DNA of 64,000 bases from contig NZ_AUGC01000011.1 of assembly GCF_000426825.1 (NCBI RefSeq), positions 1 to 64,000 of the forward strand, given 5' to 3'. Source of the stretch: Thermonema rossianum DSM 10300. Its GTDB lineage: Bacteria; Bacteroidota; Bacteroidia; Cytophagales; Thermonemataceae. The stretch's first letter is position 1. Each line of letters opens with the position of its first letter. The notes below the pieces were generated by a model that saw only the letters and a program-made list of their open reading frames with translations, did no database searches and had not been told where the DNA came from. This document shows, in pieces, positions 12,117 to 28,713 of the stretch. A program made the translations under genes and the position numbers.

Positions 12117-13352
12117 CTACACAGGCAGCAGGGCGCCCGCTTGCTTCACTTTGTGTTGTGTGAGCTGTGGGTGGTGTGCCACAAAGATACCTGCGCCGGG
12201 GTGTGCCTGCAGGAAGTCGCGCACTTGGTCGTAGCGGGCATATCCTTCGAAGGCAAAGCCGCGGGCATCGCTTATATGCGCGTGCAGCTCATGAAAGGGG
12301 AAATGCGTCAGCAGCCGGCGGGCGCTGCCGTTGCCGCTTACCCACAAGGGAAGCACCTCTTCTTCATAGAAATAGCGCTTCATATTCACTTTGCCGGTGG
12401 CTACATACCCTTTCAATACGCGCGCCACGTCTGCCATCACGGCGGCACCGGTGGGGGTGCTGCCGGCGCCTTTGCCACGCAACAACTGCGGGTGGGCATG
12501 GCGTAAGCCTATTTCTATGGCATTTTCTTCCTGCTCTACGCTTGCCAGCTGGTCCTGAACAGGCAAAAGGGCAGGGAGTACAAAGGCAGTAACGCTGCCG
12601 TCGCCACGCTCATACGCTTGGGCAAGCAGCTTTATACGGTAGTCTTTTCGTGCGCAGTAGCCGGTAGTCAGCGGGTCGAGGCGGTGAATGCCCTCGCGTA
12701 AAAGCCGCTCCGGCGATACCTCTATGCCAAAGGCATGATGCAGCAAGATGCTGAGTTTATAGCCGGCATCGAAGCCTTCAACATCCAAGGTGGGGTCCGA
12801 TTCGGCAAACCCCAAGGCTTGCGCCTCCTGCAGGGCAGCTTCGTAGGCAACCCCTTCGTTGTGCATCTTGCTGAGGATAAAGTTGGTAGAGCCGTTGATG
12901 ATGCCGCGCAACCATTCGATGTGGTCATAGCGGTAATAGTGTTGCAGCAGCTGCAGGATGGGTATGCTTCCGGCTACGGCTGCCTCATAAAGGAAGGCGC
13001 GTTGCCGGCTGCTTGCCAAGGCACGCAATTCGCGTCCGTAAAGCGCCACCATCTTTTTATTGGCACTGACCACATGCTTGCCCGACTGTAATGCCGTTTT
13101 GGCAATAAGATAAGCCGCCTCGGCATCATCAATAGCCTCCACTACCAAACTGATGGCAGGGTCGTTGAGTATGTCTTGTGCTTGAAAATAAAATTTGCCG
13201 GTAGCAATGGGACGCTCTTTGTTGGGGTTCTTTACTACTATCTTGCGTATTTGAGCCTGTATTTCACTTTGTTGCTCCTGAAAGATACGGTAAAACCCTT
13301 GCCCCACGCAACCAAAACCAAACAATCCAATTTGAACAGGAATATCACTCAT
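12117..13352 (-). CDS. hom: Homoserine dehydrogenase
   Basis: 411 aa. It reduces aspartate semialdehyde to homoserine, the branch-point precursor of methionine and threonine. The Rossmann motif GLFGFGCVGQGF is at residue 8. The catalytic domain includes AVAGSIPILQLL and GIINGSTNFIL, and the conserved TLDVEGFDAGYKLSILLHHAFG. It is monofunctional, with no aspartokinase domain. I see no clear ACT domain in the last 80 residues. It is the last gene after metY and metX, so it probably feeds the methionine branch and shares the SAM-responsive leader. Confidence 0.95.
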   Translation of the reverse strand: MSDIPVQIGLFGFGCVGQGFYRIFQEQQSEIQAQIRKIVVKNPNKERPIATGKFYFQAQDILNDPAISLVVEAIDDAEAAYLIAKTALQSGKHVVSANKKMVALYGRELRALASSRQRAFLYEAAVAGSIPILQLLQHYYRYDHIEWLRGIINGSTNFILSKMHNEGVAYEAALQEAQALGFAESDPTLDVEGFDAGYKLSILLHHAFGIEVSPERLLREGIHRLDPLTTGYCARKDYRIKLLAQAYERGDGSVTAFVLPALLPVQDQLASVEQEENAIEIGLRHAHPQLLRGKGAGSTPTGAAVMADVARVLKGYVATGKVNMKRYFYEEEVLPLWVSGNGSARRLLTHFPFHELHAHISDARGFAFEGYARYDQVRDFLQAHPGAGIFVAHHPQLTQHKVKQAGALLPV

Positions 13353-13417: not shown

Positions 13418-14461
13418 CTATGACACAGGAAACAAACAACTTTCGGTTTGGGCAAAGCAATCGAAGTAAAAGCGCTCGACGGCATCCGTCTCAATCAAGA
13501 AGGCGTCGTGTCCATATACCGAATGCAAAATGCGCAAATGTGCATGAGGAATGTAGTTTGCGAGCAGTTGCTGCTCGGCAAGCGGAAACAGGATGTCGGT
13601 ACTGATGCCCAGCACCAGCACCTGCGCACGTATGCGCGCCAGCGCTGCTTCCACACCGCCCCGCCCACGTCCCACGTCGTGGCTGTCCATGGCTTTCGAC
13701 AACCACCAATAACTGAACGCATGGAAGCGTTCACGCAACTTCTTGCCTTGATACTTTTGATAGGAGGCAGCCCGGAAGTTGCCTGTGGGAGGGCACCCCT
13801 CTGCGTCGCTCTGCGTGAGCGCATAGGTCTGGTAGTGGCGGTAGGAAAGCATGGCACAAGCACGGGCAGCTTCCATGCCTTTGAGCCCGGCACCGGGCGT
13901 GCGTTGCCCCCAGCTGCTGTCGGCTTCTATAGCCATGCGTTGCGCTTCATTGAAAGCAATGCCCCAAGGAGAATGGCGGGCATTGCAGGCAATCAAATAA
14001 GCCGAATCGAACAGCTCAGGGGCTTCTATCAGCCATTCGAGTGCCTGTTGCCCACCCATAGACCCCCCAATAAGGCAGCGAATGCGGCGGATGCCCAAGT
14101 GGCGGCGCAGCAACTCGAATCCCCGCATAATATCCCGGTTGGTAAGTACAGGAAAGTCATAATAGTAAGGTGTGCCGGTTGAAGGATTGGGAGACAGCGG
14201 GTTGGTCGAGCCGTAGCACGAGCCAAGCATATTGGCGCAAACGATAAATTGCCGGCTTGGGTCGAGCAGGCGCCCTTTGCCAAAGAGCCCTGCCCACCAA
14301 CGGTCAACGTCTGCGCTGCCCGTGAGGGCGTGGCATACCCACACCACATTGTCGGCGTTTGCATTCAGCTGCCCGTAGGTGCGGTATGCCAGCGTAAGCC
14401 CCTCGAGGGTATCGCCACACTCGGTAATAAAAGGTGCTTGATATTGGAAGGTCTTTAACAT
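13418..14461 (-). CDS. metX: Homoserine O-acetyltransferase
   Basis: 347 aa. An alpha/beta-hydrolase-fold enzyme that acetylates homoserine to O-acetylhomoserine, the substrate of the upstream MetY. The nucleophile is in IGGSMGGQQALEW, the acidic residue in STDILFPLAEQQ and the catalytic His in YGHDAFLIE. CHALTGSAD near residue 44 is also typical. It starts 4 bases after the metY stop, and hom begins 65 bases after its own end. Confidence 0.96.
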   Translation of the reverse strand: MLKTFQYQAPFITECGDTLEGLTLAYRTYGQLNANADNVVWVCHALTGSADVDRWWAGLFGKGRLLDPSRQFIVCANMLGSCYGSTNPLSPNPSTGTPYYYDFPVLTNRDIMRGFELLRRHLGIRRIRCLIGGSMGGQQALEWLIEAPELFDSAYLIACNARHSPWGIAFNEAQRMAIEADSSWGQRTPGAGLKGMEAARACAMLSYRHYQTYALTQSDAEGCPPTGNFRAASYQKYQGKKLRERFHAFSYWWLSKAMDSHDVGRGRGGVEAALARIRAQVLVLGISTDILFPLAEQQLLANYIPHAHLRILHSVYGHDAFLIETDAVERFYFDCFAQTESCLFPVS

Positions 14462-14465
14462 GCTT

Positions 14466-15829
<1,364 letters not shown>

Positions 15830-15858
15830 ATGCTATTTGATAATAACAATGCTCTGTT

Positions 15859-15878
15859 ATGCAGTATATTTACTGCAT
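15859..15878 (-). other. Leader hairpin between the metY leader ORF and metY
   Basis: ATGCAGTA and TACTGCAT form an 8-bp stem with a 4-nt loop. Its 5' arm on the minus strand is part of an 11-nt direct repeat (GCATGATGCAG, plus-strand 15874-15884) also found in the leader ORF (15941-15951). The 3' arm could therefore pair with either copy. No T-tract follows. Confidence 0.5.
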
Positions 15879-15884
15879 CATGCC

Positions 15885-15919
15885 TAAGGGGGTAAGATGC
15901 GATAAGAGGGGGAGGTTGA
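15885..15919 (-). promoter_or_regulatory. C-rich, G-poor tract after the leader ORF (possible Rho loading site)
   Basis: On the minus strand these 35 bases directly follow the leader-ORF stop codon and contain 17 C and only 1 G, with two runs of five C. This is the composition of a rut site. The role in Rho-dependent attenuation is inferred. Confidence 0.4.
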
Positions 15920-16036
15920 CTACATACAACAACAGCACATCTGCATCATGCGGAAGCGGGGAGAGGCATGAAGATGCTTGCTTGCAAGAGCTGCGAAAGA
16001 GTGTTTGTGTTGAGTGTGTTTGTTGATAAGAAACAT
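15920..16036 (-). CDS. Met/Cys-terminated leader peptide of the metY unit
   Basis: A 38-codon ORF (ATG at 16034-16036, TAG at 15920-15922) lies between the SAM riboswitch and metY. It begins MFLINKHTQHKHS and ends MMQMCCCCM: codons 30-38 contain four Met and four Cys. The start is 9 bases after the 3' strand of riboswitch helix P1, preceded by GGAAAAG, a possible ribosome site. Placement and codon content match an amino-acid-responsive attenuation peptide. The function is inferred and I know no named family. A longer overlapping frame from 16121 crosses the aptamer and is rejected. Confidence 0.65.
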   Translation of the reverse strand: MFLINKHTQHKHSFAALASKHLHASPRFRMMQMCCCCM

Positions 16037-16045
16037 GACTTTTCC

Positions 16046-16154
16046 GGTTTATATTTCCTAAATGACCTTCATTTAGGCGGGATTTGGCACCTTGCCGTGC
16101 GGCAGGTTGCCAGCGCTTCACAGAGCCCGTTCTCTCTGCGCTTCTCTATAAACC
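16046..16154 (-). ncRNA. SAM-I riboswitch aptamer (S-box) controlling metY
   Basis: On the minus strand all four helices can be drawn. P1 is GGTTTATA/TATAAACC (8 bp). P2 is GCGC/GCGC with inner CAGAG/CTCTG. P3 is built from GGCAACCTGCCG and CGGCAAGGTGCC. P4 is CCTAAATG/CATTTAGG. The conserved core strings GTGAAGCGC, GGCAACC and GGTGCCAAATCC match the SAM-I clan. It binds S-adenosylmethionine and should repress the metY-metX-hom unit. The helix P1 3' strand lies next to the leader-ORF start. Confidence 0.9.
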
Positions 16155-16224
16155 TTTTACTTTCGTGAAAAAGTAAAAGTAAGAGGTTCGATGCTGCAAT
16201 GATAAATAAGCTTTCTGACTTGTG

Positions 16225-16272: not shown

Positions 16273-17010
16273 TTACCGCCAGTCATAGGTGAATAATACA
16301 GTACGACTTTCTGGTTCGTAAAATGTTAAAATAGCGTCGGCGCCATGTCCACAATAGTGATAGCCGGCAACTTCTGCAACGAGAAAAAAATGGTTGCCCT
16401 TATAGGAAATTGAAATTCCATCGCTGGGCAGGTTTTCCCCGGCAGTTTCGTGAAAAAACATATCAAAGGCGGGAGGAGGGAGAGCGCTGTCCGTCCAATT
16501 TCCGTAGTGAATCTCTCCGCCCAGTCTGTCGATAAAATCTTGCGGGTTATCTGCTTGCCATGGCAACAATTGCCCTTTGCTTTTATAGCCGGATTTTACT
16601 TTCCGGTAGGTATCCTTTACCTCTTTAATATGCTCAAGCAAGAGTTCGTCTATTTTGTCTTTATGATTATGAACAGGCGCCGATAAAAAGTAGCCTTCAT
16701 CACCTAAAAATTGATATTTATTGTCCTTTGTGAGCTCCAAGGTAAGCCAATTTTCCCCACAAAATGCATTATGGAACTCGGCTGTTTCTTCTCCTATAAA
16801 GCCTTCGTAAGGTTCTACCGGGTTGAGAATATGCACAGTAGTACCCTGTAAGTCGCTCCTTAGTAAGCCCAAGTCTATGGAAATGAGGGGCAGTAAATAA
16901 TTTTCCAGCGAAGCTTGAGCAGGTATAAATATATCTTCGGGAAAAGGAGTTAAGTCTCTTATTGGTCTTTTGATGCTTTTTCCGTGATAGTTTGCGTTCC
17001 TGTCTTCCAT
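16273..17010 (-). CDS. Hypothetical protein, unrecognised
   Basis: 245 aa, with no signal peptide or membrane segment. It is rich in acidic and aromatic residues (e.g. LGGEIHYGNWTDSALPPPAFDMFFHE, AGYHYCGHGADAILTFYEPES) and its codon use looks more A+T-rich than its neighbours. I do not recognise a family. The soluble, acidic, single-gene character would fit an immunity-type or SMI1-like protein, but no motif shows this. It lies alone between the methionine leader and the divergent TonB receptor gene. Confidence 0.7.
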   Translation of the reverse strand: MEDRNANYHGKSIKRPIRDLTPFPEDIFIPAQASLENYLLPLISIDLGLLRSDLQGTTVHILNPVEPYEGFIGEETAEFHNAFCGENWLTLELTKDNKYQFLGDEGYFLSAPVHNHKDKIDELLLEHIKEVKDTYRKVKSGYKSKGQLLPWQADNPQDFIDRLGGEIHYGNWTDSALPPPAFDMFFHETAGENLPSDGISISYKGNHFFLVAEVAGYHYCGHGADAILTFYEPESRTVLFTYDWR

Positions 17011-28503: not shown

Positions 28504-28516
28504 TTTTTAACACGCA

Positions 28517-28606
28517 GCACCTTAGGGGTGCTCAACCACTGCCGGTTGGGCTGAGAAAATACCCTCACTACCTGATCCGGGTAATACCGGCGAAGGGAAC
28601 AGGTGC
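28517..28606 (+). ncRNA. TPP riboswitch (THI element)
   Basis: The conserved strings GGGGTGC, GGGCTGAGA, ACCC and CTGATCCGGGTAATACCGGCGAAGGGA are all present in order. Helix P1 is GCACCT (28517-28522) with AGGTGC (28601-28606). It senses thiamine pyrophosphate and should repress thiS and the genes after it. A second TAAGGTGC at 28673-28680 is fully complementary to GCACCTTA at 28517-28524 and may form the alternative structure. Confidence 0.95.
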
Positions 28607-28713
28607 AACAGCAAAGTAAGTGAAGGGGGCATCCCCGCTTTTCTGTTGCTTCCCGGTTGGGCACATCCTCCATAAGGTGCTTAGGCTTTCACCTGCACAA
28701 AAAGCATAAGCGC

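Follow-up and report, generated by a model that had tools for sequence, protein, structure and literature searches.

In attenuators of the trp and his type, a leader peptide carries codons of the regulated amino acid, and to our knowledge no ligand aptamer controls the start of such a leader. Cys-codon leaders are said to have been tested in mycobacteria by Canestrari in 2020. Bacteroidota start translation without strong Shine-Dalgarno sites. In this phylum, leader-peptide attenuation of amino-acid operons was suggested for Flavobacterium psychrophilum, in an account whose available text gives no sequence detail (PMC9723704), short ORFs reminiscent of leader peptides were described in Bacteroides (PMC7366714), and the Bacteroid-trp motif corresponds to RF01692 (PMC2864571). 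In Mycobacterium tuberculosis, the riboswitch of Mbox-rv1805A-pe20 controls translation of a conserved upstream ORF (uORF), with Rho-dependent termination in the leader; the main 3′ end was placed upstream of rv1805A and, in the available text, two models are left open by the authors (PMC12810186). Cys-codon leaders precede the cys operons of Mycobacterium and P. acnes and cbs of B. longum; for the mycobacterial ones, where the available part of the report finds no conserved terminator, its authors suggested Rho in 2005 (PMC1262725). Finally, direct-type SAM-I riboswitches, as described in the available text, have the ribosome-binding site (RBS) inside the 3′ strand of P1 (PMC2258182).

The locus considered here lies in a window of 64,000 nucleotides from Thermonema rossianum DSM 10300 (contig NZ_AUGC01000011.1). 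Rfam detects one complete SAM-I aptamer at this locus, on the minus strand (16154-16046), scoring 82.8 bits where the gathering score is 44.4, so that the complete minus-strand P1-P4 fold of the original prediction is borne out over the full model. In a narrow scan of the leader region (E = 4.6e-20 for RF00162) SAM-I alone reached a gathering score. Membership in RF00162 is by sequence and fold, above the curated score and at full length, and the window aptamer is a predicted SAM-binding SAM-I riboswitch. Its P1 pairs GGTTTATA (16154-16147) with TATAAACC (16053-16046), and the end of P1 is separated by 9 nt from the ATG of a leader ORF encoding the 38-residue peptide MFLINKHTQHKHSFAALASKHLHASPRFRMMQMCCCCM, which closes with MMQMCCCCM before TAG (Table 1). 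Thus, the 38-codon ORF with its ATG at 16036 and 9 bases past P1, its codons 30-38, and the 140 bases between its stop and metY (start at 15779), all read earlier from the letters, are placed correctly. A known peptide family was rejected for the leader on the basis of zero NCBIfam matches among the four leader peptides tested. metY, a metX-like gene with MetX as its best match, and hom share this strand, 4 nt separating the first two and 65 nt the last two, and the homoserine dehydrogenase gene probably belongs to the metY-metX operon. Other features of the window include a 10-bp hairpin, CTTTTACTTT/AAAGTAAAAG (16154-16179), read by eye directly 5′ of the aptamer and having its last base in common with P1; a 245-residue protein encoded on the riboswitch's own strand, upstream of it (16276-17010), without NCBIfam or Pfam match at E 0.001; and a TPP riboswitch on the plus strand (28514-28616). 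One other SAM-I riboswitch (L002) was found in the search of the same genome; it precedes metH and is without such a leader ORF.

Table 1. Features of the riboswitch-leader locus and the genes behind it (window coordinates).
Feature	Position	Strand	Basis
SAM-I (S-box) riboswitch aptamer, P1-P4	16046..16154	-	RF00162, 82.8 bits, full model 1-108
P1 3′ strand TATAAACC, weak, A-rich	16046..16053	-	sequence; leader-type P1 unlike metH-type P1
38-codon leader ORF, ATG to TAG	15920..16036	-	sequence; ORF kind kept in relatives
Codons 30-38, Met-Met-Gln-Met-Cys-Cys-Cys-Cys-Met, proposed sensing run	15923..15949	-	sequence; Met enrichment in relatives
Pyrimidine-rich, G-poor stretch, possible Rho-binding	15886..15919	-	sequence; putative function
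Perfect 8-bp hairpin ATGCAGTA-AATA-TACTGCAT, terminator-like core	15859..15878	-	score -11.0 kcal/mol; putative function
metY, O-acetylhomoserine aminocarboxypropyltransferase	14466..15779	-	TIGR01326, 706 bits, over cut-off
metX-like homoserine O-acetyltransferase	13418..14461	-	TIGR01392 342 bits, NF001209 309 bits, both below cut-offs
Homoserine dehydrogenase (hom)	12117..13352	-	NF004976 over cut-off; PF00742

Like trp/his-type attenuators, the locus has a leader with the relevant amino-acid codons, but here an aptamer stands before its start. With Mbox-rv1805A-pe20 it has in common a riboswitch joined to a conserved uORF, the control being known there by experiment and deduced here from sequence, whereas the mycobacterial element has Mg2+ as its ligand, belongs to another phylum and, in the available text, is not said to carry an amino-acid-sensing run (PMC12810186). 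The B12 riboswitches of M. tuberculosis metE and ppe2 also show an interplay of riboswitch and translated uORF, in one case before a methionine gene; according to the available text, however, the metE uORF is located inside the aptamer and reduces expression, and the ppe2 uORF works mainly by termination-reinitiation at an overlapping stop and start, while here 140 nt lie between leader and gene (PMC11260477). The actinobacterial leaders are likewise short ORFs ending in Cys codons before sulfur genes, but the available part of that report mentions neither a riboswitch nor Met enrichment (PMC1262725). Similarly, uORFC-8-2 (before cysS in Rhodobacterales) has tandem Cys codons and predicted ribosome-mediated attenuation, but only two Cys codons and an intrinsic terminator, with no riboswitch described in the available text (PMC8632094). 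As in the SAM-I riboswitches with the RBS in P1, P1 itself would occlude initiation; the regulated start is that of the gene in those described, and that of the leader peptide here, where the A-rich strand is not a Shine-Dalgarno sequence (PMC2258182). The pairing of a SAM riboswitch with a Cys/Met leader was not found in the open-licence literature, covered mostly at the level of titles and abstracts and without supplements, and is absent from the available text of PMC11109978 and PMC9373788. The original prediction that no described system combines the two sensors therefore holds, within that coverage, for this particular pairing; it has to be qualified, because riboswitch-uORF systems (PMC11260477, PMC12810186) and Cys leaders (PMC1262725) are both published, as far as the available texts go. 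Both halves are thus of known kinds, and their coupling is, as far as searched, new. We propose that the locus is a two-input leader, in which the SAM-I riboswitch gates translation of the leader and the ribosome on the Met/Cys codons sets read-through into metY, and assign to this reading a probability of about 0.68.

To place the locus in its order, we searched its own genome and 58 relatives with RF00162, under stricter filters with which some weak matches were lost, and collected 107 SAM-I matches in 47 of the 59 genomes. A leader was scored when a start lay at +3 to +19 after P1 and the ORF had 15-75 codons with at least three Cys within six residues. This rule was passed by 38 of the 107 loci, and 26 of the 47 SAM-I-bearing genomes have a leader. 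By class of downstream gene, assigned in tblastn searches of about 1300 nt with a small set of reference proteins, leaders precede 24/40 metY-like, 12/26 unclassified and 2/2 APC permease genes, and 0/34 metH and 0/5 metX genes; for four of these 34 metH loci, P1 and the start of the metH match are more than 400 nt apart. Close metY genes (at least 55% identity) have a leader in 23 of 32 cases, distant metY relatives in one of eight. The nine close metY loci without a Cys cluster by the rule are L012, L026, L036, L055, L056, L060, L073, L101 and L106. On inspection by eye, L106 does have a leader, its P1 having been placed some 36 nt too early by the covariance model, whereas at L101 there is an open frame that ends in CWCCCCR and has no ordinary start codon. 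Two weak passes of 16 residues (L067 and L083) were excluded from the peptide and folding statistics, but are still counted in the census and in the comparison of P1 composition and energy. Runs of four Cys codons, (TGY)x4, within 260 nt of P1 were found in none of the 34 metH leaders; in the census as a whole 25 such runs are in frame with a start at +5 to +15, one is out of frame and two have no start in that interval. The three that deviate are L101, L106 and L107; by eye, P1 seems to be misplaced at two of them. Taken together, frame, spacing and gene-specific occurrence led us to reject a chance ORF.

The leader start occupies a narrow position relative to P1. Although the rule allowed +3 to +19, all 38 leaders (31 ATG, 6 GTG and 1 TTG starts) begin at +7 to +14, with 27 falling on +9 or +10, that is, within reach of the ligand-controlled helix, as in riboswitch-controlled uORFs. 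The same position stands out without selection for a leader: ATG occurs at +6 to +14 in 52/73 non-metH switches versus 2/34 metH switches, and in the control windows +20 to +28 and +32 to +40 it occurs in 2/73 and 7/73 non-metH and in 2/34 and 2/34 metH switches. Leader-type P1 is a nearly uniform TTTATA/TATAAA helix with 58% A in its 3′ strand. The GC content of this strand is 10% in leader-bearing switches versus 31% in metH switches, and the duplex energy is -3.4 versus -6.9 kcal/mol. Across the order, metH switches, the class of L002 in the own genome, have a stronger and G-richer P1. Conventional anti-P1 switching was rejected: no complement of the P1 3′ strand exceeds shuffles in the leader, being in fact weaker (-1.27 versus -1.59). 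A start adjoining a weak, A-rich P1, together with the lack of an anti-P1 complement, points to direct occlusion, whereby a closed P1 would prevent initiation of the leader. In this arrangement, a second role is proposed for the P1 3′ strand, which would form the upstream portion of the site where ribosomes land to start the leader. The earlier suggestion that P1 could control translation of the peptide has thus gained support from start spacing and the weak A-rich P1.

A rival explanation is control by SAM alone. The leader would then be a riboswitch target whose translation shields the transcript from Rho, and its Met/Cys end a fixed pause with no sensing. Consistent with this, ATG or GTG at +6 to +14 is also found at loci without a cluster (9/16 metY-like, 12/14 unclassified), and 20 short ORFs near P1 that are without a cluster show no Met enrichment at their ends (8/240 in the last 12 residues versus 11/411 earlier), with Cys mildly raised there (22/240 versus 13/411). 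We regard this explanation as unlikely, since leaders with unconserved N-termini still retain the Cys cluster and the Met enrichment, and since the cluster goes with sulfur genes and was seen at 0/34 metH switches.

The peptides themselves were compared using 121 leaders, 119 of them distinct, drawn from the census without L067 and L083 and from the named-genome matches listed (see below). They have a median length of 38 codons, and their final cluster opens with a Cys at median codon 32; the last residue is Cys in 91/119, and the peptide ends at most three codons past the last Cys in 119/119. N-terminal parts differ between clades by eye, and an alignment of 13 flavobacterial metX-type leaders (L224, the fourteenth, being left out) is divergent. 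Met accounts for 27/2925 N-terminal residues and for 95/714 in the six codons that precede the cluster (Fisher p 1.6e-45), an enrichment of about 14-fold beside the Cys cluster. From the start of the cluster onwards, 54 of 142 non-Cys residues are Met. At least one Met lies near the run in 86/119 leaders. After grouping by N-terminal similarity into 85 clusters, Met is higher near the run in 60, lower in 2 and tied in 23. As our filters selected for Cys and not for Met, the label "Met/Cys run" given to the window's codons 30-38 is right as a description. Its conservation had been put forward as a check, and indeed the ORF frame, the P1-adjacent position, the Cys cluster and the Met enrichment are kept in many Bacteroidota. 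A short leader ORF with a run of relevant codons kept in relatives, as is characteristic of attenuators, is therefore present.

Two further explanations bear on the run. It might be a non-coding RNA element, either a UGY-repeat protein site or a hairpin loop: the last 16 codons fold somewhat better than codon-permuted versions in 82/119 leaders (mean z -0.75). In some metX-type leaders of flavobacteria, moreover, ATG codons on either side of the Cys run form a stem, so that the Met signal could in part be structural. However, the run is in frame with a start by P1, mixes Cys codons (TGT 426, TGC 274 over 119 leaders) and has a stop adjacent, and Met is enriched without having been selected, which makes a purely RNA role very improbable. 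We consider it equally improbable that the peptide itself functions, for instance as a microprotein rich in thiols that binds metal or sulfide. A cysteine cluster could coordinate metal, but N-termini differ between clades, the Cys cluster abuts the stop, and the four leaders tested gave no NCBIfam match.

Genes behind the leaders were clustered using 119 downstream proteins from the census and the named-genome matches listed, including those of L217, L067 and L083. Most are metY-like (74) or metX-like (15), followed by RimK-like ATP-grasp (6), sulfite/nitrite-reductase-like (5), SusC-like (4) and CysH (3) proteins; M14 peptidase, NhaC-like, APC permease and cysteine-desulfurase-like clusters have two members each, and CysD, a pyridine-nucleotide oxidoreductase, OsmC and the protein behind a chance match are single. 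Names rest on cluster representatives, those of CysD, CysH and metY being over curated cut-offs and those of the reductase, antiporter, permease and ATP-grasp clusters matching below NCBIfam cut-offs; the metX-like cluster and the desulfurase were named by eye, and for L119 Pfam gives only alpha/beta hydrolase. Attenuators precede genes which make or import the relevant amino acid or its precursors, and this fits the 98/119 downstream proteins that are metY-like, metX-like, CysH, CysD or sulfite-reductase-like. An APC permease, NhaC-like antiporter, SusC-like or M14 peptidase gene lies behind the leader at L027, L029, L034, L080, L087, L162, L176, L188, L199 and L223; these are candidate Met/Cys uptake genes. 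The RimK-like ATP-grasp genes (L046, L052, L062, L085, L187 and L195) perhaps encode a cysteine-linked peptide ligase.

The identity of these genes also bears on the sign of the response. MetY uses sulfide, so that cysteine and homocysteine synthesis compete for it. Based on this pathway knowledge, a stall caused by starvation for Cys-tRNA could expose RNA or block antitermination, thereby lowering metY and sparing sulfide for cysteine, and the lack of a common antiterminator (see below) is compatible with such an opposite sign. However, leaders are also found before cysD, cysH, sulfite-reductase-like and possible uptake genes, which a Cys-starved cell should induce, and we consider the opposite sign distinctly improbable. 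The analysis establishes the parts of the leader, their spacing, frame and codon content, and their association with metY and sulfur-assimilation genes. It is at the level of this conserved anatomy that the original interpretation is supported, and the mechanism built on it is likely. We infer that the leader is translated, that ribosomes stall on it, that stalling acts in the ON direction, and that transcription ends through Rho and/or lineage-specific terminators.

The RNA following the leader stop was analysed for signals of termination. In the window, a T-rich stretch starts 9 nt after the hairpin of Table 1, at 15849. Post-stop RNA is more structured than shuffles in 97/118 leaders (mean -20.8 versus -16.7 kcal/mol), and hairpins gather at +30 to +95 (83/118, p 1.7e-8). 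Terminator-like sites were found in 25/118 leaders versus 10.3 expected, the window's own leader among them at stop+73; by the rule used, 93/118 leaders are without such a site. A single trp-type antiterminator formed by the Cys run is unsupported, as pairing of the end of the run with the next 40 nt is not above shuffles (54/118, p 0.58); the averaged pairing map has only a small excess, and no uniform terminator/antiterminator arrangement was found across the 118 leaders. Plausible alternative folds are nevertheless seen in individual leaders such as L219 and L173, where sequence around the final sensing codons or the stop could base-pair with sequence at or beside the 5′ arm of the terminator. 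Fourteen Mucilaginibacter-type leaders (13 from Mucilaginibacter and L218, labelled Bacteroidetes) have a CACGT/ACGTG-type stem about 7-12 nt past the stop, with modest covariation: 82.0% of cells are paired versus 79.8% in shuffles (44 of 500 shuffles as high), and pairs changed on both sides number 6 versus 3.8. C exceeds G after the stop (0.28 versus 0.13 at +10 to +19, 119 leaders). Over the first 90 nt, census and metH leaders have the same G content (0.173 each) and differ in C (0.278 versus 0.213), so that base composition gives little support to the Rho idea, and Rho inferred from low G was rejected. We suggest that termination varies by lineage, being intrinsic in some and perhaps Rho-dependent in others.

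Named genomes were also scanned for a conserved SAM-I core followed by an RTG and then four Cys codons, the frame not being required. At least 120 stretches matched. Among the matches listed, 60 have an exact GGYAACC at most 70 nt upstream, and in 60/60 the Cys run is in frame with a nearby start, with no stop between; among the other 60, without this exact motif, the run is in frame in 26 and not in 34. SAM-I was confirmed by Rfam in 25 of the 26 in-frame matches and in none of 10 checked of the 34. The remaining in-frame match, L217 from a cyanobacterium, was discarded as a chance match for which Rfam finds no SAM-I; it is the only in-frame match listed that is not from Bacteroidota by name. 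Accordingly, the named genomes contribute at least 85 further riboswitch-leader cases (25 by Rfam, 60 by motif), all 85 among the matches listed carrying Bacteroidota names, several of them metagenome bins. Genera among the matches listed include Mucilaginibacter, Pontibacter, Chitinophaga, Chryseolinea, Fulvivirga, Rufibacter, Lewinella, Psychroflexus and Chryseobacterium. At one of the loci, L223 (Pontibacter ramchanderi), a pair of SAM-I aptamers lies with one member on each strand and about 270 nt between them.

In a phylum-wide SAM-I search of 118 genomes, 70 of the matches were examined, class and order being taken from kinship labels. In other classes, a leader was found in 0/33 matches examined, though 27 of them precede metY and 6 metX. 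In other orders of the own class, 2/37 matches examined have one (L311 and L318), both before metY; close metY genes (at least 70% identity) number four among these 37, and two of the four have the leader. At L288 and L305, also from other orders of the class, a start lies at +9 or +8, but there is no Cys cluster. The metY leader L305 has a Met-rich, Cys-poor end, MRMRMPMSCFSYMCA, and is possibly a mainly methionine-sensing form. Thirty loci with Cys runs and no riboswitch were also inspected, of which one, L246, resembles a leader: its frame ends PCCCCCC before a SusC-like gene, without GGTGCYAA in the 300 nt upstream, and it is a possible Cys-only leader. Overall, the leader seems to have arisen within a single class.

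The two-input leader would work as follows. With SAM bound, the weak A-rich P1 would be held closed 9 nt before the start, on ground that the 30S subunit needs, and the leader would therefore stay untranslated. With SAM low, the leader would be translated, and the speed of the ribosome on the terminal Met/Cys codons would report charged tRNA-Cys and tRNA-Met. A ribosome stalled on these codons would let RNA polymerase continue into metY-metX-hom, whereas with the ribosome absent, or finished and gone, transcription would stop within the structured 140 nt. Full expression of the operon would require SAM and charged sulfur amino acids to be low at the same time. Extending this proposal beyond the window, we consider it somewhat more probable than its negation that Bacteroidia have a SAM-I subtype with a weak TATAAA P1 whose expression platform is the start of an attenuator, acting as a logical AND over SAM, charged tRNA-Cys and charged tRNA-Met and serving the sulfur assimilation/methionine regulon, not metH.

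The recurrence of the riboswitch-leader pair in front of sulfur genes of many Bacteroidota makes it probable that these cells read out two sulfur signals from a single message. If true, this would be a natural two-layer RNA gate, with a riboswitch acting on translation of an attenuator peptide and not on the gene. Such a gate would sit in 26 of the 47 SAM-I-bearing genomes sampled in the order and in several other groups of Bacteroidota, tied to sulfur genes, and would offer a genetically simple system with ribosome, RNA polymerase and aptamer on one transcript. It would thereby give a testable answer to the question of how methyl donor, methionine and cysteine are jointly taken into account by these bacteria.
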